A stretch of DNA of 64,000 bases from Parvicella tangerina (lineage in GTDB: Bacteria; Bacteroidota; Bacteroidia; Flavobacteriales_D; Parvicellaceae), in assembly GCF_907165195.1 (NCBI RefSeq), contig NZ_OU015584.1, forward strand, positions 3,172,978-3,236,977. Direction: 5' to 3'. Position 1 is the first letter of the stretch. Every line of letters begins with the position of its first letter. This document shows positions 11,703 to 60,794 of the stretch, piece by piece. Under the pieces are notes generated by a model. It searched no databases. It saw only the letters and a list, made by a program, of their open reading frames with translations, and was not told where the DNA came from. The translations under genes and the position numbers were made by a program.

Positions 11703-11727
11703 TAGAAGCGAATTTTATTATACTTTT

Positions 11728-14559: not shown

Positions 14560-17181
14560 GTGGTAAGACGATTAAGTAAAGTAGCTAGAGAGTTTAACGT
14601 TGGTACATCAACCATCGTTGAATTTTTGCATTCTAAAGGTAAGGAGATCGAATCAAGTCCTAATACGAAGATTGACCCTGAACTTTATGAGCTGTTGCAA
14701 GATGAATTCTCTAGTGAGAAATCTGTGAAGGAGAAAGTAGAAGAAGTTCGTTCTGAGATCAAAGAGAAAGCTGAAAAGACTACCGAAGAAGAAGTTCAGC
14801 CAGAAGAGGAAGAACCGAAGAAAGACGAAACCATCAAGGCTAAGGCAAACAAACTTAGCGGACCATCAGTTGTTGGTAAAATAGACTTAGGCAAGGACAA
14901 GAAAGAGGAGGAAAAAGAAGAGAAAAAGGAAGAAAAGAAGGAGCCGGAAGCAGAAGAGAAAAAAGCTCCTGTTAAGGCTAAGGAGGAAGAAAAGAAGGCC
15001 GAAAAAGAAGAAAAAGTTGAGCCTAAAGAAGAAGAGAAGGAAGAGAGCGAAGAGGTTGAAACGATCAAGGCAAAAGCTGAGAAACTTTCAGGAGTTACCG
15101 TGGTGAGAAAAATCGATCTTCCAGTTGAAAAGAAAAAAGAGAAAAAGAAACCTCAGGATAACGATGACAGCCGCAAAAAGAAGCGTAAGCGTATCAAGAA
15201 GGTAAATATTGATGAAGCTGGTAGAAAAGCCTCTCAAGAGTATAAAAAATCAAAGAAAGGAAAGAATCAGAAAACAGAGATTTCTGAAGAGGAGATCAAG
15301 AAAGAGATTCAGGAAACGCTTGCTCGATTAAGTAACAAGAGTAAGAATAAAGGTGTTAAACTTAGAAGAGAGAAAAGACAAGCTCAAGCTGAAAAACGTG
15401 AAGAAGAAGCGCTTCAGGCAGAACTTGACAAGGGTAAACTGAAGTTGACAGAATTCGTAACTGTATCGGAGTTGGCAACCATGATGGACAAAACTCCAAC
15501 TGACATCATCGCTACGTTGATGGGAATTGGAATTTTTGCTTCGATCAATCAACGTTTAGACGCTGAAACTTTAGCAATGGTTGCGGAAGAATATGGATTT
15601 GAGGTAGAATGGGTAAGTGCAGAGTTAACCGAAACTATTCCTGAGGAAGAAGACGATCCAAAAGACCTTGAAGCAAGACCTCCAATTGTTACCGTAATGG
15701 GTCACGTTGACCATGGTAAAACTTCCCTATTGGATTATATTCGTACAAGTGATGTAACAGAAGGAGAGGCTGGTGGAATCACCCAGCATATTGGAGCGTA
15801 TAGCGTAACTGGTGAAAGCGGAAGAAAGATCACTTTCCTTGACACACCAGGTCACGAAGCCTTTACAGCAATGCGTGCGCGTGGTGCTCAGGTTACAGAT
15901 ATTGCAATTATCATTATCGCTGCGGACGATGACGTGATGCCTCAGACCAAAGAGGCGATTAATCACGCTCAGGCGGCAGGTGTTCCTATGGTGTTTGCCA
16001 TTAACAAGATTGATAAGCCTGGAGCAAATCCTGACAAGGTTAAGGAGCAGCTTTCTGGAATGAACATCTTAGTAGAAGACTGGGGTGGAAAATACCAGTC
16101 ACAAGAGATTTCAGCTAAGACGGGACAGGGAGTTGAAGAACTTCTTGAAAAGGTTCTTTTAGAGGCTGAAATGCTTGACCTTAAGGCAAATCCAAATAAA
16201 AATGCGATTGGTACTGTAATTGAATCTACACTAGATAAAGGTAGAGGATATGTGACTACCCTACTCGTTGAAGCAGGTACTTTGAAAGTAGGTGATATGA
16301 TTATCGCTGGTACTCAGCTAGGACGTGTGAAAATCATGCATGATGAACATGACCAGGTTGTTAAAGAAGCTGGTCCGGCTAAACCAGTCTCCATTTTAGG
16401 TATGCAGGGAGCTAGTAATGCTGGAGATCGTTTCCATGTAATGACGGATGAAAAAGAAGCGAAAGCAATCGTAAACAAACGTCAGCAACTACAGAGAGAG
16501 CAAGGACTCAGAACTACTAAACACATTACACTTGATGAAATTGGTAGACGTCTGGCCCTTGGAGAATTCCAGGAACTGAACTTGATCGTAAAAGGTGATG
16601 TGGATGGGTCTGTAGAAGCATTAGCGGATTCGATGTTGAAATTATCAACTGAGGAAATTCAGATCAACGTCATTCACAAAGCCGTTGGCCAGATTACTGA
16701 GTCTGATGTGTTGTTAGCGACCGCTTCTGATGCGATTATCATTGGATTCCAGGTGAGACCTTCTGCTGGAGCTAGAAAACTTGCTGAAAAGGAAGAAATT
16801 GATATTCGTCTGTACTCAATTATTTACAAGGCTATTGAAGAGATCAAAGAAGCAATGGAGGGTATGCTTTCTCCAGATGTGAAAGAAGAGATCATCGGTA
16901 CGGCCGAGGTAAGAGAAACCTTCAAAATCACTAAAGTCGGTACAATTGCAGGATGTTTTGTTACTGAAGGTAAAATCACCAGAAACAGTAGCATTCGTCT
17001 GATTAGGGACGGTATTGTAGTGTACACAGGTGAACTTGGTTCGTTGAAGCGATTTAAGGATGACGTGAAAGAGGTTACTCATAACTACGAGTGTGGTCTG
17101 AACATTGAGAAGTTCAACGACATTAAAGTAGGTGACGTCATAGAAGCTTTCGAAGAGGTAGAGGTTGCTAGAAAACTTTAA
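14560..17181 (+). CDS. infB: translation initiation factor IF-2
   Basis: A large GTPase (about 873 residues) that places initiator tRNA on the 30S subunit. An N-terminal IF2_N helix region ([20 protein letters not shown]) is followed by a very charged Lys/Glu linker to about residue 300. The linker holds two copies of a KAKxxKLSGxxVVxKIDL motif (encoded near 14836-14890 and 15067-15121). The G domain has [16 protein letters not shown] and NKID, followed by the C1/C2 domains. The start is set at GTG 14560 because the likely promoter overlaps the alternative TTG at 14536; no ATG is available. Confidence 0.95.
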
Positions 17182-33906: not shown

Positions 33907-36435
33907 TTACAACACCTTGATCTCGACTCTTCGGTTTACTTGATTTTCCTCTTCAGAACATTGGTTCCATTTTACACAACCATTCAAGATTTTTGTCTCT
34001 CCATAACCTTTCGCTTCAATTCTGGAAGCTTTGATTCCGTGATTAACGAGATAATCTTTACAACGTTCTGCTCTGGCTTGCGATAACTTCATGTTAAAAT
34101 CATCTTTACCGACTGCATCTGTATGCGCACTCAGTTCAATGCGAATCGTTGGGTTGTTATTCATGAAATCAACAATATTATCTAGGATCGGATAAGATTC
34201 TTCTTGCGGATGAGACCTTGCAAAATCAAAGTAGATATTATCTACTCGGATCACGGCATCCTTCTCACCTTTTGATCTGAATTCCAACGGGTTCATTTTG
34301 GCGATGATCTCGTCCCTTCCTCCATCGTCAATAGATGGAACCACAAACTCCTGTGCTTCAAAGCCGTCCTTATCGAATTTCACTTTATACTCTTTGGTCG
34401 GATCAATCTCAAAGCTCCATTTCCCATCATCACCCGTAACCATCGAGTTAACCTCGATCCATTCTCCATCTCGATCCTCCAGCAAGGTTACCGTAACTCC
34501 TTCTACTGGTTTTTCCGTAATCTGATCCAGTACGATTCCTGCCAAAATATTATCCTTATCATCGTTAAGGGTTACCTTCTTCAGCTTATCAATTTGTCCC
34601 TCGCGCTCATCATAATTCGTACCGTCATACGCATCAACAGGAAAGTTCTTGCTCCCTAATTCAGGGTGAATGAACTGCACATCATAGTTTTTATCTGGAT
34701 CGACTTCAAACTGCCATTTACCATCTTCAATTGTGATTTGCGTCTCCACTTGTTTTCTGGAACCATCAGGCAAAATTTCATTCAAAATAACCTTAACATC
34801 TGCCAAAGGTTCTCCCGTTTGTGCATCTTCAACGACTCCACTAATGACCCTGCTTACTGGCTTTAACTCAATATCCTTCAAATCTTCAATTACTTGATCC
34901 CGATGATCGCCATCATCTTCACTCAACGATGGAATGACCTTGTTTTCTGGCGCCATGTCTGGATGAATGAATTCTACCTTATAAGTTTCATTAGGGTCAA
35001 TCTCAAACTCCCAATAGCCATCATCACCTGTTATTCGGTCTTCTACGAGTTCCCAATCGTCATTCTCATTCTTTTTATATAACTCCACTTTTACATCGGC
35101 AAGTGGCTCTCCAAAAGTTCCTTCTCTCACCACTCCACTAATGATCTCAGAAGGGTTGTAATCGTAGAAGTAATAGACCTTGTCATATCCATGTGTTCCT
35201 TCTCTATTAGAAGAAAGGTATCCATTAGTTCCTTCATCGCTTAAAATGAAACTAAAATCATCTTTGGTGCTATTTAATGGTCTACCCACATTTTTTGCAG
35301 CCCCAGCCAGAGTTTCATTCAAGCTAGCCACAAAAATATCCGTTCCTCCAAACCCAGGATGTCCTTTGGATGAGAAGAACAGTTTGTTCTCCGTTGCAAA
35401 AGGATAGGTTTCATCTTCGAATGTATTTATTTGCTCTCCTAAGTTTTGTGGAGTAGACCAGGTTGTATCGTTCTCTTTTGTGACATACCAAATATCATAT
35501 CCTCCGTAACCACCAGGCATATCTGAAGCAAAGAATAAGGTTTCCCCGTCAGGAGAAAGGTTTGGAAAAACACAGCTGTAGTTATTCCCATTGAATGCTA
35601 GTTCTTTAATGTTCGTCCATTCTCCGTCAATCAGTTCTGCACTGCAGATTTTTAAGATATTTCTGCCATCCTCAGAAATTGGTAACTCATCCAACTTTTT
35701 CTGTTTGTACTTTTTGATATCTGCACTGTTTGAAGAGAACAACAATTTCGTTCCGCCCTTATACAAATAGGGAGTTCCTTCGTAATAAGGCCCATTAAGT
35801 TCTTTACTCAAAAGCACGGGTTCTCCAAATTCATTTGGCGAGGAGTTTGAAACACTCGCCAAATCGTAATAAGCTGTTTTCTTATCATATTTATCCGTCT
35901 GTGGGGTGGCAATGATCAATCCATCCTCACTGAATGAAACACCTAAAGAGCGTGACCCCGTTTCTATATTCGTAACACTGGTTTTAGCCACTTCCGGATC
36001 ATCTTTGTGATCCTGAGCATAACTGACATACTCCTCAAAATAGGCTAACTCAGCGGCCGCATCTTCTCGGGAAGCATAGTCGGAGAATACCTCAAGTGCT
36101 TTATCGTACTCTCCCAGATTGCAAAGCACTCTCCCGTAATCGTATAAATTATCTGTTTTGTTTTCTCCTTTATAGGTGGTTAGCTCTTGATAATAAGTAG
36201 CCGCATTTTCATAATCAAATAAATGATTATACGTCTTGGCCACTTGTTGAAGCATGTAGTATTTATTGACAACCACTTTTTCTTCTAATGCTAACTTGTA
36301 ATAGTCAATCGCCTCTCTGTACTTTCTTTTCGAGTAATACTCATCAGCAATATCCAAGTACTTTCGCTGCGCTGTAGCCTCATTTGCTACTCCTAAGACC
36401 AATAAACTGGTCAACAACAATATCAATCCTCTCAT
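33907..36435 (-). CDS. PorE-like T9SS protein (TPR, PD40, triple CRD, OmpA)
   Basis: An 842-residue outer-membrane-associated protein. After a signal peptide (ending ATAQ) come TPR helices (about 25-145), a PD40 beta-propeller (about 165-430, with repeated LSPDGETLFFASD and FFSSKGHPGFGGTDI patterns), three tandem carboxypeptidase-regulatory-like repeats (about 432-715, each with GEPLADVKV and TGDDGxWxFEIDP), and an OmpA domain (about 730-842) with the peptidoglycan-binding pattern LSAHTDAVGKDDFN and LSQARAERCKDYL. TPR-PD40-CRD-OmpA is the layout of PorE/PG1058 of T9SS, though PorE has one CRD, not three. It is last in an operon with a PorP/SprF protein and a type B cargo protein. Confidence 0.88.
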   Translation of the reverse strand: MRGLILLLTSLLVLGVANEATAQRKYLDIADEYYSKRKYREAIDYYKLALEEKVVVNKYYMLQQVAKTYNHLFDYENAATYYQELTTYKGENKTDNLYDYGRVLCNLGEYDKALEVFSDYASREDAAAELAYFEEYVSYAQDHKDDPEVAKTSVTNIETGSRSLGVSFSEDGLIIATPQTDKYDKKTAYYDLASVSNSSPNEFGEPVLLSKELNGPYYEGTPYLYKGGTKLLFSSNSADIKKYKQKKLDELPISEDGRNILKICSAELIDGEWTNIKELAFNGNNYSCVFPNLSPDGETLFFASDMPGGYGGYDIWYVTKENDTTWSTPQNLGEQINTFEDETYPFATENKLFFSSKGHPGFGGTDIFVASLNETLAGAAKNVGRPLNSTKDDFSFILSDEGTNGYLSSNREGTHGYDKVYYFYDYNPSEIISGVVREGTFGEPLADVKVELYKKNENDDWELVEDRITGDDGYWEFEIDPNETYKVEFIHPDMAPENKVIPSLSEDDGDHRDQVIEDLKDIELKPVSRVISGVVEDAQTGEPLADVKVILNEILPDGSRKQVETQITIEDGKWQFEVDPDKNYDVQFIHPELGSKNFPVDAYDGTNYDEREGQIDKLKKVTLNDDKDNILAGIVLDQITEKPVEGVTVTLLEDRDGEWIEVNSMVTGDDGKWSFEIDPTKEYKVKFDKDGFEAQEFVVPSIDDGGRDEIIAKMNPLEFRSKGEKDAVIRVDNIYFDFARSHPQEESYPILDNIVDFMNNNPTIRIELSAHTDAVGKDDFNMKLSQARAERCKDYLVNHGIKASRIEAKGYGETKILNGCVKWNQCSEEENQVNRRVEIKVL

Positions 36436-36448
36436 CCCTATTATTTAA

Positions 36449-37384
36449 TTAAAATCTTGGTGCTTCTATTACTGGTTCTTCAGCGTTACTCTTAATATCG
36501 AATACGAACATGATTTCATGACTTCCCGAGGAATAATTCCCCAGATTATTCAAGGTATAATCATAAGAATACCCAAGCTTGAACATATCGTTAATTCTAA
36601 ATTGAGCAAGAGCAGCTATTTCATTACTCGTTCTGTATGAAAAGCCTAAACCAAATTTTCTCATGTATTCAGCCAGTACATTCAAATCTGACTGCAGCGG
36701 AGCTCCAGCAACTTGTTTCAATAAGGTAGATACATTTAGATCAAACTTTGGGTTGATCTCAAACTTATAACCACCATGCAAATAAAAATGCATCTGACTA
36801 AAATCAAATGTTGTTTTACCAGAGTAGCCTCCGTTGTTAACGATCTCATTATGCAATAGATTCGGAATTGCAAATCCAATGTAGTATTTCCGACTGTTGA
36901 AGTATGTTCCAAACTTGAAGTTCGGCATCAGCAAAGTAGGTGAATTAGCCTGAAAACTCGGGTCAACCACTCCATTTGTTTCTACATCGGCATAATTACT
37001 TTGATTCATTCTTAAAGTAGCAGATAATCCGAAGCTTAATTTTGTCTTTAAAGAAGTTTGAATACTATAAGCATAGTTACCACTTACATCTGTTGTATTG
37101 TTTACTCCAATTCGATCATTTACCAGCGTCAAACCTACATTTGAATTTCCATTACCAATCGGAGAGTTGATGTTGAAGCCTGCTACATTAGGAGCACCAT
37201 CAAATCCCACCCATTGAGCTCGATAAAAAAGTGCCCCATTCAGATTCTCAAAAGCTCCTACCGCTCCAGGATTGATCAATGGATGATGGGTCATGTACTG
37301 CGTGACATGAAACTGATTTTGCGCCTTGCCAGCAAACCCTACTAAGACTAGTAGGAGTCCGAAAAATATTTTATTTACTCTCAT
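36449..37384 (-). CDS. PorP/SprF family T9SS outer-membrane protein
   Basis: A 311-residue beta-barrel. The signal peptide ends GKAQN, followed by QFHVTQYMTHHPLINPGAVG, the conserved start of the PorP/SprF family, and amphipathic strands such as NSNVGLTLVNDRIG and FKFGTYFNSRKYYIGFAIPNLL. In Flavobacterium SprF-like proteins are needed for secretion and attachment of type B C-terminal domain cargo. Here it lies 6 bases after such a cargo gene and 13 bases before the PorE-like gene, so it is probably the dedicated partner. Confidence 0.92.
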   Translation of the reverse strand: MRVNKIFFGLLLVLVGFAGKAQNQFHVTQYMTHHPLINPGAVGAFENLNGALFYRAQWVGFDGAPNVAGFNINSPIGNGNSNVGLTLVNDRIGVNNTTDVSGNYAYSIQTSLKTKLSFGLSATLRMNQSNYADVETNGVVDPSFQANSPTLLMPNFKFGTYFNSRKYYIGFAIPNLLHNEIVNNGGYSGKTTFDFSQMHFYLHGGYKFEINPKFDLNVSTLLKQVAGAPLQSDLNVLAEYMRKFGLGFSYRTSNEIAALAQFRINDMFKLGYSYDYTLNNLGNYSSGSHEIMFVFDIKSNAEEPVIEAPRF

Positions 37385-37390
37385 AGTTCG

Positions 37391-40300
37391 TTAGTCTCTT
37401 TTAATTTCAATTGATCCTTTTAAAGGTTCCATCCCGTCTCCTAATTCCAGAATATAGAAGTACGTCCCAGTAGTCACTTTATCTCCCATTAAGACGCCAA
37501 CACTAGGCGTTCCGTCCCAATCATTATTGTAGGGAGCGGCTTCATAAACCAGGTTACCCCACCTATTGAAGATGCTCAACTTATTATCAGGGTACAGATC
37601 TAAGCCAGTTATCACAAAAATGTCATTGATGTTATCGCCATTTGGAGAGAACCCTCCAGGCACCTTAAAGTCTACCGAAGACTCAATGGTTATCGTCACT
37701 GTAGCCGTATCGCAAATATTCACACAGAATGCATCACAAATCTCATACGTAAATGCCTCAGTCCCTACAAAATCATTATTACTGGTATAATCAATTGTTC
37801 CATCCACATTCACAGTTGCAGTTCCGTTTGAAGGAGAACTAACAATTGCTGGAGTACTTGAAGTCTGCGTATCATTGCTCATCACGTCAAATGTCTCATT
37901 GACACCAGAATTACTTGTATAACTGTCGTCAACTGCAACCAAGCTTCCTCCCACCGTTTGAACCGTTACGATCACATCATCTGAATTCTCACAGCTATTT
38001 CCATCGGTAAGCGTAACCGTGTAGGTTGTGGTAGCTGTTGGACTTACTGTAATACTAGGTGTTGTTTCTGTCGTACTCCACACTACGGAACCTGTTCCAG
38101 TGGCGGTTAAGGTAACATTGTCACCTGGACAAATGGTTTCATCCGCCCCGGCATCCACTGCTGGCAAAGGGTTAACCGTAATAGTAACCGCATCCCGACC
38201 ACCAACGTTTCCACATCCATTACTATTGAAAGCTTCAACATAGTACGTAGTCGTTGTAGTTGGCGATACAGTTAGAGGTGTTGAACCTAGATTCGTTCCT
38301 CCTGTAGAAGCGTCAAACACACTGTAAGTAACTCCAGTTCCAGTAGATCCAGCTCCCGTGATATCTACCGATTCACCTTCACAAATGGTATTCGAACCAG
38401 CTGTAGAGCCAGCCGTTGGGGCGGTTGGAGACTCATTCAAGGTAATTGTCACCGTACTGTTATTAGGGCAAGTTCCACCAGTAGTGTAGGTAATATCATA
38501 AGAGGCTCCTGCCGTTGAAGTAGACAAATCAATCTCTCCAGTCGTTCCATCAACTGTTATTCCTGCTGGTGTACTCGTAAACGTTCCTCCAGCAGTTCCA
38601 GAAATGTTCGCAACTGGATTGGTTTCATTCTCACAGAAACTTGTCGTTCCGTTGTAATCGAATGACGCATCATCCTGGGCAGTAATTGTAATCGTTGCTG
38701 TTTCATTTGCGGCAACACAACCTCCACCTGCTGGAATATCATTCTCTACGGTATACGTTCCAGGAACACTCGTGTTTAGATCCACTTCTCCTGTACTCGC
38801 GTTGATCACAAGATCAGTAGTTGCAGGTACGGCAGCAAAGGTTCCTGCACTTGCCCCAGGATCAAAAGTCACTGAAGCTGTTCCTGCACCTTCGCAATAA
38901 GGTGTTCCAGCATAACTAAACCCTGCTGTTGGTGATGAAGTCACTGTGACCTGAACCGTACTGTTATCTGGACAAGCACCACCTGTAGTATAAGTAATAT
39001 CATAAGTGTTAGCCGATGAAGATGCCAATGTAATTTCACCTGTTGTTCCATTCAGTGTTAAACCAGCTGGTGTGCTCGTAAATGAACCTCCAGAAGTCGT
39101 AATGGTAGGTGTAGGATCCGTTCCAGATAAACAATAAGTACTCGCTCCGTAAGCAAATGTTGGGTCATCTACTGCTACAACTTCAATTGAGCTTGTTGCG
39201 CTTGCAGCAGCACACCCACCAGCAGCAGCGATATCATTTGAAACCGTATAAACGCCTGGCGTACTTGCCGCCAGATCAACATCACCTGTTGAACTATTAA
39301 TGGACAAACCAGCTGTTGAACTAAACACTCCGCCACTTGCTCCGGCACCAAATGTAACAGAAGCAGTTCCAGCATCTGAACAATAAGGAGTTCCTGTGTA
39401 GCTGAATGTCGCATCAGGAGCAGAAGTTACACTAATACTTTGTGTAGATGAATTCGGACAAGTACCAGCTGTAGTGTATGTCACCGTATAACTCGTAACG
39501 CCATTCGCATCAAGATCAACCTCACCAGTTCCAGCAATGATAACTCCAGAATTGTCTATGGTAAACGTACCTCCAGTTACCCCTGAAATGGTTGGTGTTG
39601 GATCAGCTCCAGTCAAGCAATACGTACCACTTGCGTAGCTGAATGAAGCATCATCTAGTGCGTTGATGGTGACATCTGTTGTTGCAGCTGTTGACGTGCA
39701 CCCTGCCACAGTTACCGTACATGAATACGTCCCATCTGCTGCAGTTGTTGCTCCAGTGATGGTTGGGTCTTCTGAAGAAGAACTAAAACCATTTGGTCCT
39801 GTCCAAGCATAAGTTGCACCTCCAATCGTATTTGCAGTCAAATTAATAGTACCTCCATCACAAACTGGTGAGTTCGAACCAAGAGTTGGTGCACCTGGGA
39901 TTGGATTAACCGTAACTGCTACAGTTCCTGAGGTGGAAGTACAACCAGCCACTGTTGCCGTCACATTGTAGGTCCCATCTGCTGCAGAGGTAGCTCCTGA
40001 AATTGTTGGATTCTGACTACTTGACGCAAAACTATTTGGACCCGTCCATGAATAGGTTGCACCACTTACCGCGCTTGCGGTCAAGTTGATGTCGTCTCCA
40101 TCGCAAATCGGTGAGTTACTGCCCGCTGTTGGGGCGCTTGGTGTAGCGTTTACAGTTACATCTGTTGTAGCTGCTGAAGAAGTACACCCAGCAACCGTAA
40201 CGGTACAAGAATAAGTCCCATCTGCAGCGGTTGTCGCACTGGCAATAGTAGGATCTTCTGAAGAAGAACTAAAGCTATTTGGCCCTGTCCAGGCATACGT

Positions 40301-41644
40301 TGCACCACCAATCGTATTTGCTGTTAAATTAATTGGATCACCTTCACAAACTGGCGAGTTAGAACTAATTGTTGGAGCGCTTGGACCAGGAGTAACGGTA
40401 ATCATTGTAGGAGAACGATCACTCAAGCAAATTCCTGAGCCACTCGACACGTAATAAGTTGTTGTTGAAGTCAGTGAAGGGGTCGTAAACGATGCTCCCG
40501 TATGAACTGGCGAACCTCCTGAGGGAGTTGTATACCAATTATATGGAGCCCCAGATCCTCCACTAGCCGTTAGCGTTACTGAAGTTCCCGAACAAACTGA
40601 TTGATCTGCAGTAACAGATGGAGATGGGACCACATTCAGCTCCCAGAACACAAAACTCTTTGAACCTCCTGTGCCGTGAACGCCATCATAATAAGCACCC
40701 CCACCTGGGTCTGTAACAGGTAGAGCGGTGTCGTACGTTTGTTGAGCCATGAATAGTCGGTTCGTACCATCTACGTATGCTAAATGAGGAGCATAAGTAC
40801 TTCCATCACCAAAATAAGAAGACCAATCTGGGGAATAAGTCGAACGATCAACTTCCCACAAAAACGCCTGACCACCAGTTGCATTATTATAATGACCTGT
40901 AGCAGAAATAGCTGTCATTGACCAACTTCTACCAAAAAAGATCATCTTGTTACAGCTAACAATGACCGACCCGTAAAGCAGATCACCACTCGCGTCATCT
41001 CCCCAATAGGTTGCCCAGTTTCGGACTCCATTATTGGTGAATTTCAAGATCAAACTATTGAAACCACTAAATCCGGTACTCGTACCAGCATTTGCTGGAG
41101 CTGTTGTCAAGTTATATGCCCCTGCTAAAGTCTGTGTTGGGACATCACTACTATGGGTTCCAGCAGTTATGATAACTTCATCAGTTACAGGATCGATTGT
41201 TATAAAATTACCATTTCCCATTCTACTATCAATCCCATCATAACTGCTTCCTCCATATAAGGTATGCCAAACTAATGCTCTGGATGAATTGAACTTTCCA
41301 ATACTAATATCTTCTGATGTTGTGGTATTATCAAAGTACGCTCCACCACCAGGGTTGACCATCTGTTCAGTAGCGGTACCTGAAGAAAAATAGGATGCAT
41401 CGCCTGTAAAGAAGATATTGTCATTTTCATCATATCGTACGTTAACTCCATCCAACGAGCCCGCACCCCCTAAAAATGTTCCCCAAGTCAGGTTATAAGA
41501 GGCATCTAATTCAAAAAAGAAGTAGTCGGTGAACCCACCATTGACTGCTTGATTATAGGCCCCTGCTCTCGTCATTAAAGGCCCTGGACCCCAGTCATAG
41601 GCTCCCATACCAAAAACAACTTTACCTGTTGAACTAATATCCAA
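37391..41644 (-). CDS. type B T9SS surface protein, downstream part of a frameshifted gene
   Basis: About 1417 residues open in this frame. They hold the rest of an SBBP-type beta-propeller (to about residue 340, with repeats like WGTFLGGAGSLDGVN), then an Ig-like domain, three nearly identical Ig-like repeats (SNSPVC...WTGPN), about five repeats opening DDxxFxY...GxxYC, two further Ig/PKD-like domains, a cadherin-like VDDSYTSNSG domain, and a C-terminal gliding-motility-associated type B sorting domain (GGFSPNGDNINDIF to SIEIKRD). The frame has no signal peptide; the N-terminal part is in the +1-shifted frame upstream. Together the parts form one roughly 1810-residue secreted protein. Translation of this part alone from the internal ATG is unlikely to be the native product. 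Confidence 0.85.
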   Translation of the reverse strand: MDISSTGKVVFGMGAYDWGPGPLMTRAGAYNQAVNGGFTDYFFFELDASYNLTWGTFLGGAGSLDGVNVRYDENDNIFFTGDASYFSSGTATEQMVNPGGGAYFDNTTTSEDISIGKFNSSRALVWHTLYGGSSYDGIDSRMGNGNFITIDPVTDEVIITAGTHSSDVPTQTLAGAYNLTTAPANAGTSTGFSGFNSLILKFTNNGVRNWATYWGDDASGDLLYGSVIVSCNKMIFFGRSWSMTAISATGHYNNATGGQAFLWEVDRSTYSPDWSSYFGDGSTYAPHLAYVDGTNRLFMAQQTYDTALPVTDPGGGAYYDGVHGTGGSKSFVFWELNVVPSPSVTADQSVCSGTSVTLTASGGSGAPYNWYTTPSGGSPVHTGASFTTPSLTSTTTYYVSSGSGICLSDRSPTMITVTPGPSAPTISSNSPVCEGDPINLTANTIGGATYAWTGPNSFSSSSEDPTIASATTAADGTYSCTVTVAGCTSSAATTDVTVNATPSAPTAGSNSPICDGDDINLTASAVSGATYSWTGPNSFASSSQNPTISGATSAADGTYNVTATVAGCTSTSGTVAVTVNPIPGAPTLGSNSPVCDGGTINLTANTIGGATYAWTGPNGFSSSSEDPTITGATTAADGTYSCTVTVAGCTSTAATTDVTINALDDASFSYASGTYCLTGADPTPTISGVTGGTFTIDNSGVIIAGTGEVDLDANGVTSYTVTYTTAGTCPNSSTQSISVTSAPDATFSYTGTPYCSDAGTASVTFGAGASGGVFSSTAGLSINSSTGDVDLAASTPGVYTVSNDIAAAGGCAAASATSSIEVVAVDDPTFAYGASTYCLSGTDPTPTITTSGGSFTSTPAGLTLNGTTGEITLASSSANTYDITYTTGGACPDNSTVQVTVTSSPTAGFSYAGTPYCEGAGTASVTFDPGASAGTFAAVPATTDLVINASTGEVDLNTSVPGTYTVENDIPAGGGCVAANETATITITAQDDASFDYNGTTSFCENETNPVANISGTAGGTFTSTPAGITVDGTTGEIDLSTSTAGASYDITYTTGGTCPNNSTVTITLNESPTAPTAGSTAGSNTICEGESVDITGAGSTGTGVTYSVFDASTGGTNLGSTPLTVSPTTTTTYYVEAFNSNGCGNVGGRDAVTITVNPLPAVDAGADETICPGDNVTLTATGTGSVVWSTTETTPSITVSPTATTTYTVTLTDGNSCENSDDVIVTVQTVGGSLVAVDDSYTSNSGVNETFDVMSNDTQTSSTPAIVSSPSNGTATVNVDGTIDYTSNNDFVGTEAFTYEICDAFCVNICDTATVTITIESSVDFKVPGGFSPNGDNINDIFVITGLDLYPDNKLSIFNRWGNLVYEAAPYNNDWDGTPSVGVLMGDKVTTGTYFYILELGDGMEPLKGSIEIKRD
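39655..40390 (-). repeat. three tandem Ig-like domain repeats
   Basis: Three units of about 240 bp, each starting with a SNSPVC/SNSPIC-type motif and containing GATYxWTGPNxF. The first and third are much closer in DNA sequence than either is to the second, which suggests conversion or duplication within the gene. Boundaries are approximate. Confidence 0.75.
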
Positions 41645-42828
41645 AGAGGTCTCTGACGAACTATGCCCCCAATGAACGTTGAATGCACTAACTCACCAGT
41701 ACTAACATCGAACCTCACGTAGAAATTAGGATCATCAGCTGCATTATAGTAACCACTCCCATTCACCAAAGGCCAAGTACTATTGCTGTAACCTGTCAAA
41801 TGAACCATTCCATTATCGATCGCCATTGGATCCGTTCCATAAACATAATCTCCGCTGGTCCCTCCGATATTTGTTGCCCAAACCAACTGTCTGGAACTGT
41901 TGAACTTGGCTATATAAAGTTCTGCTCCACTTGCGTAAGCTTGTGAATATGCAGAACCTCCCGGATCGACCATAGGGAAACCTCCTTTGTTATCTGTGGC
42001 CACTAAAAATAAATTCCCACTTGCATCCGCCTCAATGTACTCATAATCGAGACCACCAAAGGAAGTAACTGTTGACTCGAAATATGTACACCAGGTCAAT
42101 GATGGATCAATTACAAGTGAGTTGTACCCTTGATCAGTTTTGAACTTTATTCGATTCTCATGAATTGAATAAGCAACATCAACTTCTGCTTTTTCATCTC
42201 CATTCATGTATGAATAAGGGATATCTTCTACCAGATCAAGAAACTCTGTTTCAATCACCAATTCATTATCAGTAACCCGAACATTCTCCGCTCCATTATA
42301 GAACAATGAGACATCACTAAGATCTGCGCCTTTGTGTAGTACAATGTCATATTTCAACCCTGCTTCATTTGGATAAAAGACAAAATCGATATGATCATAC
42401 ATCTCCTTATAGGTCAACTTTTCATAAACGGGCGCATTTTGAACATTTACTAAATCAGCGTGATAATAATTGCTGCTATAAGAAGCTTTATCACTTCCCA
42501 AAAGTTCCACATTTTCATTAGCGCCTTCAAACTCTAGGTCAACTCTGTTTACATCATAAGTCATTTCTCTAAATAGGCTATCGTAGACATCACTTCCGGG
42601 CTCATGCCCTTCCAAAACTTCACGATGAACATTCTTAATCGCATAGACTACCTTATTATCGAGAAAAAAGACTTCTGCATCTCCCAATTGATAAGTAAAT
42701 TTAACTTCTGAATGAAGCTGCCCCTCCGCGTCATAGACCTGTCCTTTATTTTCTACAAATTGAGATGTGTAAATATTAGACCATCCCATTAGCACTAATA
42801 GGGGTAAAATTCTAAACGTGTATTTCAT
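41575..42828 (-). CDS. type B T9SS surface protein, upstream part of a frameshifted gene
   Basis: About 417 residues. The signal peptide (MKYTFRILPLLVLMGWS) is followed by FVENKGQVYDAEGQL, the start of the DUF7948 domain found before SBBP repeats in Bacteroidota, then the first SBBP propeller units (VWATNIGGTSGDYVYG). The frame reads sensibly to STFIGG at 41666-41683 and then runs as unrelated sequence to a stop at 41575. The next expected words, HSSSETSLDISSTG, are in the other frame. An ATG at 42861 is an alternative start, but the signal peptide begins at 42828. Confidence 0.82.
   Translation of the reverse strand: MKYTFRILPLLVLMGWSNIYTSQFVENKGQVYDAEGQLHSEVKFTYQLGDAEVFFLDNKVVYAIKNVHREVLEGHEPGSDVYDSLFREMTYDVNRVDLEFEGANENVELLGSDKASYSSNYYHADLVNVQNAPVYEKLTYKEMYDHIDFVFYPNEAGLKYDIVLHKGADLSDVSLFYNGAENVRVTDNELVIETEFLDLVEDIPYSYMNGDEKAEVDVAYSIHENRIKFKTDQGYNSLVIDPSLTWCTYFESTVTSFGGLDYEYIEADASGNLFLVATDNKGGFPMVDPGGSAYSQAYASGAELYIAKFNSSRQLVWATNIGGTSGDYVYGTDPMAIDNGMVHLTGYSNSTWPLVNGSGYYNAADDPNFYVRFDVSTGELVHSTFIGGIVRQRPLWILVQQVKLFLVWEPMTGVQGL
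41666..41670 (-). other. G5 homopolymer at the frameshift point
   Basis: The minus strand reads ATT GGGGG CAT. Six G would keep the DUF7948/SBBP frame joined to the Ig/CHU_C frame; there are five. The lost base could be a true mutation, a base-calling error, or a slippage site. Confidence 0.85.
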
Positions 42829-42880
42829 AAGATAAACTGTAAGATTTCTAGCAATCTCCATAACCAGGAGACCTCAATTC

Positions 42881-60073: not shown

Positions 60074-60334
60074 TTATAATGTGTTTACTGCTTTAAATGC
60101 ATCGCTAAAATCTTTACTCATATCAACGAATCGCATCCAAACCTTTTTTAAAAACTCTTCTGAGACCAACTTTTCCATATCCTCCATTCCCGTAACATCA
60201 TTTGCACTTAGCCGATAGACTTGTTCGTATTGATCCAAGACAATCTTGACAATGTATTTATTCTCTCTGAGAAAAATACTGATATCCAATTTAGGGTGAG
60301 GTATTTTAGTGACGGTTCTCAAAACAGAACGCAA
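60074..60334 (-). CDS. hypothetical protein
   Basis: An 86-residue protein, probably a small alpha/beta fold: two predicted strands (KLDISIFLRENKYIVKIVL) and a helix-rich C-terminus (FLKKVWMRFVDMSKDFSDAF). No signal peptide. It ends 1 base before the Skp-like gene start. No family recognised. Confidence 0.65.
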   Translation of the reverse strand: MRSVLRTVTKIPHPKLDISIFLRENKYIVKIVLDQYEQVYRLSANDVTGMEDMEKLVSEEFLKKVWMRFVDMSKDFSDAFKAVNTL

Positions 60335-60395
60335 AGGTAAAATGTTGGCGCTAAGTAACCAACAAAAAAGAATAAAAGTAAAAGTTAATTGAAAA

Positions 60396-60794
60396 TCAGG
60401 CTAACACCTTTTCGTACAATGAATACTCACAAAACTCGAAAGGCACTTTAACCATGAACGCAAAATCCTGTCCCACTTCATACATATCATCCTCATCTTC
60501 ATGGTAATACCATTTCACATCAACGGTATACCCTGAATCGATCAACTCATTCAGTTTATAGAAAACAAAAAGAATGCGTTTACTAGATGAGATATTGAAA
60601 TAATCCAGTTTAACCACCACATGAGTTACCTCATTCGGAGCGGTCAAATAATCATCTAACCAAGAGAGAATCGGTTTAAAAAACTCCTCTGCATCATTAT
60701 TGATTGCCTTCCCCTCTATACTGAACACACCTGATTCGATATTAAAATCAATTTCTGGTGTGGTGTCAGTTGCTTCAATAAAAAGTGATTCCAT
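60396..60794 (-). CDS. DUF1987 / SiaC-like partner-switch protein
   Basis: A 132-residue protein resembling SiaC: TPEIDFNIESGVFSIEGKA at the start, then LDYFNISSSKRILFVFYKL. In Pseudomonas aeruginosa SiaC is controlled by phosphorylation of Thr68 by SiaB and the SiaA phosphatase, and activates the diguanylate cyclase SiaD. Here position 68 is Ile, followed by Ser69-71. No SiaA, SiaB or SiaD gene is adjacent. Confidence 0.8.
   Translation of the reverse strand: MESLFIEATDTTPEIDFNIESGVFSIEGKAINNDAEEFFKPILSWLDDYLTAPNEVTHVVVKLDYFNISSSKRILFVFYKLNELIDSGYTVDVKWYYHEDEDDMYEVGQDFAFMVKVPFEFCEYSLYEKVLA

Follow-up and report, generated by a model that had tools for sequence, protein, structure and literature searches.

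In Parvicella tangerina, a single break in the reading frame divides one giant gene for a surface protein into two parts. The gene lies on the minus strand of a 64,000-nucleotide stretch of DNA (hereafter the window; positions 3,172,978-3,236,977 of one 3.98-Mb contig, in a genome of 99.83% completeness), and the break is best placed at a run of five G. Upstream of it the frame encodes a DUF7948 domain; downstream, it encodes Ig-like domains and a type B sorting domain of the type IX secretion system (T9SS). As a split adhesin gene the case is ordinary in kind, and as real mutation and consensus error are inseparable from sequence alone, we leave the cause between these two. The features of the locus, in window positions, are:

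41575-42861, minus strand: upstream open reading frame of 428 aa, from the ORF listing
42103-42759, minus strand: DUF7948 (PF25778), E 1.9e-46, residues 35-253 of that ORF
41666-41670, minus strand: run of five G, the best-supported break site (letters, alignment and coding model)
41647-41671, minus strand: interval of the -1 frame change (10 of 10 homologs, the three closest at 41668-41671)
41573-41577, minus strand: TAATG, in which the stop of the upstream ORF is overlapped by an ATG of the downstream frame
37391-41668, minus strand: downstream frame with the remaining repeat region, Ig_7 domains, Big_9 and sorting domain (ORF and domain search)
37403-37666, minus strand: CHU_C / TIGR04131 type B T9SS sorting domain, profile matches above cut-offs
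36449-37384, minus strand: PorP/SprF-family gene (TIGR03519, 2.5e-72; PF11751, 2.9e-67)
33907-36435, minus strand: PorE-like protein with TPR, PD40 propeller, carboxypeptidase-regulatory and OmpA parts (profile searches)

The downstream frame is shifted by -1 relative to the upstream ORF and remains open between 41692 and a stop codon at 37391. Counted from the first ATG the joined gene comprises 1,823 codons, and from the second (42828), which is the likelier start, 1,812; the initial annotation had put the product at about 1810 residues, close to both values. The N-terminus of the upstream ORF is hydrophobic and signal-like, as judged by eye and not by a predictor. Both halves are coding, with DUF7948 in the first and Ig_7, CHU_C and TIGR04131 above their cut-offs in the second, and the two long frames carry no further lesions, which fits a recent mutation and an error alike. 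A scan for promoters and terminators gave counts no different from those in shuffled sequence.

That these are two parts of one large gene with a single frame break, as the initial annotation had proposed, is borne out both by homologs and by a coding model that uses none. At E <= 1e-20, the beginning of the downstream half has strong matches in 10 of 399 genomes of the order, this one included. All 10 homologs, from 9 other genomes, have both halves in one frame across the join; not all of these frames are complete, and for two of them (L070 and L022) openness across the join is the sole claim, since the L070 homolog (genome G046) is without the first half of DUF7948 and the frame of the Brumimicrobium salinarum homolog (L022) runs off the end of its contig. 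A further locus, L087, duplicates the record of L022 and was not counted. The three closest homologs share 62, 47 and 45% identity with the window sequence over the first 350 downstream residues. Identity is uneven along the gene: the segment 40604-41644 is 62% identical to G046, which belongs to another family, and only 36% identical to the copy in G001, of the same genus, to which the C-terminal part of the adhesin is 56% identical. This pattern may reflect a mosaic history or domain exchange.

When the window DNA is aligned with each of the 10 homologs by a frameshift-aware method, exactly one -1 shift results every time. The three closest homologs place it at 41671, 41668 and 41668 and have a common GHS/GHTSS/SHTSS motif at the G-run; the other seven place it at 41662 (two homologs) or 41647 (five), and all seven, in which the shift falls downstream of the G-run, have a loop two codons shorter, a place at which the three closest are gapless. 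A break after the residues RP (41647) had first been read from L022 and the G001 locus L025. Five of the 10 homologs still place it there, but with the shorter loop, and because the homologs that shift downstream all have this loop while the three closest are gapless, we retain 41647 only as the outer limit of the break interval. The homolog-free coding-potential HMM switches frame at 41669 when run along the gene and at 41691 along the other strand. The five G described earlier at 41666-41670 of the minus strand are indeed present in the letters, and the G-run is the best place for the join, though the safe interval is 41647-41671. The chance of a G or C run of at least five in a 25-base interval of this genome is 0.7%.

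The domain content points to a type B substrate of the T9SS. The initial assignment of DUF7948 to the upstream frame stands (E 1.9e-46), whereas its SBBP label finds weak support: one NCBIfam SBBP model matches with an E-value of 0.0032 and falls well short of its cut-off, and the Pfam SBBP model gave no match. In the downstream frame a profile search finds five Ig_7 stretches, Big_9 and the sorting domain, which matches CHU_C (PF13585) at 89.7 bits (cut-off 27) and TIGR04131 at 53.3 bits (cut-off 35). No Sec signal peptide was found in the frame that holds the sorting domain; the signal-like start sits in the other frame. The genome has a T9SS (SprA at 2405.7 bits, cut-off 200) and 44 CHU_C matches, 43 of them over the cut-off. 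It also encodes five DUF7948 proteins; apart from the present one, all have open genes. Literature searches found no paper on the DUF7948 domain and none joining Flavobacteriales, SBBP and type IX secretion. A structure model of the first 780 residues of the B. salinarum homolog, built from 6 sequences, is all-beta with a mean pLDDT of 60.1 and has CylK as its best PDB match (TM 0.39); being too poor to tell which blade is cut, it was set aside.

The neighbouring genes fit this assignment, in that a PorP/SprF-like gene adjoins the substrate gene in a genome that has a T9SS. Type B substrates are often genetically linked to PorP/SprF-like shuttles (PMC12618676), and a complex of PorE, PorP and substrate, in which PorE has four domains, is described in PMC9143113. 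The domains of that PorE, as given there, match those of the third gene here, which differs in scoring below the cut-off of the PorE model (259.7 bits against 600). The locus as a whole resembles those of known type B CTD substrates (SprB/SprF, Fjoh_3952/Fjoh_3951 and PG1035/PorP/PorE): a large protein combines a signal-like N-terminus with Ig-like repeats and a type B sorting domain, and a PorP/SprF gene comes next. It differs from them in its substrate gene, which is divided between two frames. Adhesin, shuttle and peptidoglycan anchor form a known kind of unit.

We compared the locus across four genomes of the genus, this one included. In the sister species G001, a syntenic copy adjoins rsmI and an RDD gene and is followed by PorP; it has one break within DUF7948 (near L025 8640-8690) and another near 11726, in other places than in the window. 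The break at 11726 was found by alignment and not by the filter of the frame-break scan described below, which in 164,407 bases of G001 kept 3 of 24 shift calls: the adhesin gene, a likely break at L162 7835 and one gene junction. As G001 is a metagenome-assembled genome, its breaks may themselves be errors. The syntenic copy in G002 is open in its two assembled parts, which reach the contig ends after 1,408 and 928 codons, and in G003, a genome only 74% complete, rsmI is present with a different gene beside it. P. tangerina, G001 and G002 all have an open gene for the PorP partner. The adhesin is thus broken at differing places here and in G001, open in G002 and missing from the position in G003, with PorP/SprF kept open; that the same adhesin has been silenced again and again in the genus is nevertheless an unlikely reading.

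Frame breaks elsewhere in the genome were sought in a sample made up of the window and 60 further stretches (1.264 Mb). A first filter flagged one candidate and missed the target, and its "loss" score, which let through just 2 of 60 simulated breaks, was dropped. Of 276 same-strand shift calls, 46 passed the final filter, for which either the tail had to exceed 30 nt or a start codon had to be absent within 25 nt; sorted by eye, the 46 were four clear breaks, two unclear cases and 40 gene junctions. With 71 of 118 simulated one-base deletions recovered, this extrapolates to about 20 breaks in the genome. A control scan of loci from 12 named isolates (188,654 bases) kept one of four calls, a gene junction, and covers too little sequence for a comparison of rates. 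Besides the adhesin, the clear breaks affect an ornithine--oxo-acid transaminase, hsdS and an RND adaptor. The transaminase is split at A6 (L096 14050-14063; G000:C1 about 864,050), with TIGR01885 positions 1-43 and 36-401 in successive frames. The type I restriction specificity gene hsdS is split at a 12-nt TA/AT tract (L108 15590-15601; G000:C1 about 3,315,590) with PF01420 in both halves, and is a better candidate for phase variation than the G-run of the adhesin. In the gene for an RND efflux adaptor lipoprotein (L108 2362-2373; G000:C1 about 3,302,362), a 12-nt TA tract shortly after the start separates the start codon from a body that lies in another frame. TA tracts of at least five units number only four in the 1.264 Mb, and the two longest are both at frame breaks, 13 kb apart. 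The unclear calls are one in the window at 60077-60794 (near 60396), where two same-strand frames meet and the second is without a near start codon, and one in L148 near 16275-16384.

Two regulated explanations can be weighed against these results. The initial annotation had suggested that the break might be phase-variation-like; on such a reading the G-run would gain and lose bases and so toggle the adhesin on and off. Slipped-strand phase-variable surface genes likewise combine a surface protein with a homopolymer at the join; moreover, the downstream frame is intact and, of three syntenic copies in the genus, two carry breaks. The tract here is, however, too short and not conserved: it comprises only five G, whereas one survey took 7 nt as its threshold for phase-variable repeats (PMC3711429), and no repeat tract of at least 7 nt was found at the break. 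Such runs are common - 241 sense-strand G5 runs occur in the 1,011 coding segments of the sample, where G or C runs exactly five long number 353 in all and those of at least seven number 9 - and the G-run is not conserved in the homologs, none of the 10 breaks there, the G001 breaks lie elsewhere and the four other DUF7948 genes of the genome are all open. We therefore regard phase variation as very improbable. The same annotation had raised a slippage site, at which programmed -1 frameshifting or transcriptional slippage would yield a short and a long product. The direction of the shift (-1) and the run of G would suit such a mechanism, but the codons ATT GGG GGC make no X XXY YYZ heptamer, the coding segments of the sample hold as many as 11 GGG GGC pairs in frame, and no homolog of the 10 breaks at this point. 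Nor was a stimulatory structure found in the 105 nt downstream, where the fold has a z of -0.42 and 62 of 200 shuffles are at least as good, by a program that does not cover pseudoknots. The chance that the site is recoded in this way appears slighter still. With a short and common G5, no heptamer, no fold and no break in homologs, a regulated role of the site is unlikely.

There remain a real mutation and an assembly error, both also raised in the initial annotation: a recent loss of frame in this type B T9SS adhesin gene, by a one-base slip in or just after the G5 run, or a one-base consensus error in an assembly homopolymer, in which case the cell carries an intact gene. A single shift followed by 4.3 kb of intact downstream frame ending in a sorting domain is as expected of a recent change, and the broken syntenic copy in G001 suggests that the gene may be dispensable in the genus. 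The undamaged downstream frame also suits an error, as do the placement of the break at a homopolymer and the openness of all nine compared genomes across the join. The second homopolymer break, at A6 in the transaminase, speaks for errors as well: a single-copy, conserved metabolic gene is affected, and it looks like a residual one-base error. Against this, breaks are few (four clear ones in 1.264 Mb), the genome is 99.83% complete, and none was found at longer A/T or G/C runs; that none was seen at any of the 681 A/T runs of at least seven speaks for mutation, since a process of homopolymer error might hit those first. About 20 broken genes per genome would be ordinary for real inactivated genes, and the extrapolated number fits both these and a long-read consensus with a few residual indels. 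A literature search on long-read assembly homopolymer indels, interrupted genes and pseudogenes found nothing. The gene is also like the singleton frameshifted genes of the GeneTack survey, with two adjacent frames confirmed by homology and domain models and no conserved break; nothing sets it apart from them, and homology-supported singletons are there expected to be sequencing errors and not mutations (PMC3711429). We consider a consensus error quite possible, if a little short of an even chance. For the recent one-base loss of frame we would put the chance as even, and that the DNA really carries the frame change is something we infer.

If the DNA does carry it, ribosomes on the upstream ORF would stop 31 codons past the G-run. 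The resulting 428-aa product would keep the signal sequence and DUF7948 but have neither a sorting domain nor the Ig-like domains nor the remainder of the repeat region; it should therefore reach the periplasm and not be passed on by the T9SS. As the downstream ATG at TAATG has no signal sequence, even reinitiation should give no surface protein.

Whichever the cause, the frame break in the adhesin calls for caution and is not in itself a discovery. Should it be an error, the giant adhesin would be misannotated, either as two proteins or as a pseudogene. If it is real, the strain is without one large type B surface protein yet keeps the genes of its dedicated partners, a case that bears on the ease with which adhesins are lost and on how loose the pairing of shuttles and substrates is. 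Were recurrent silencing in the genus true, lineages would switch off a large adhesin by frame loss and keep the shuttle, perhaps for other type B substrates.
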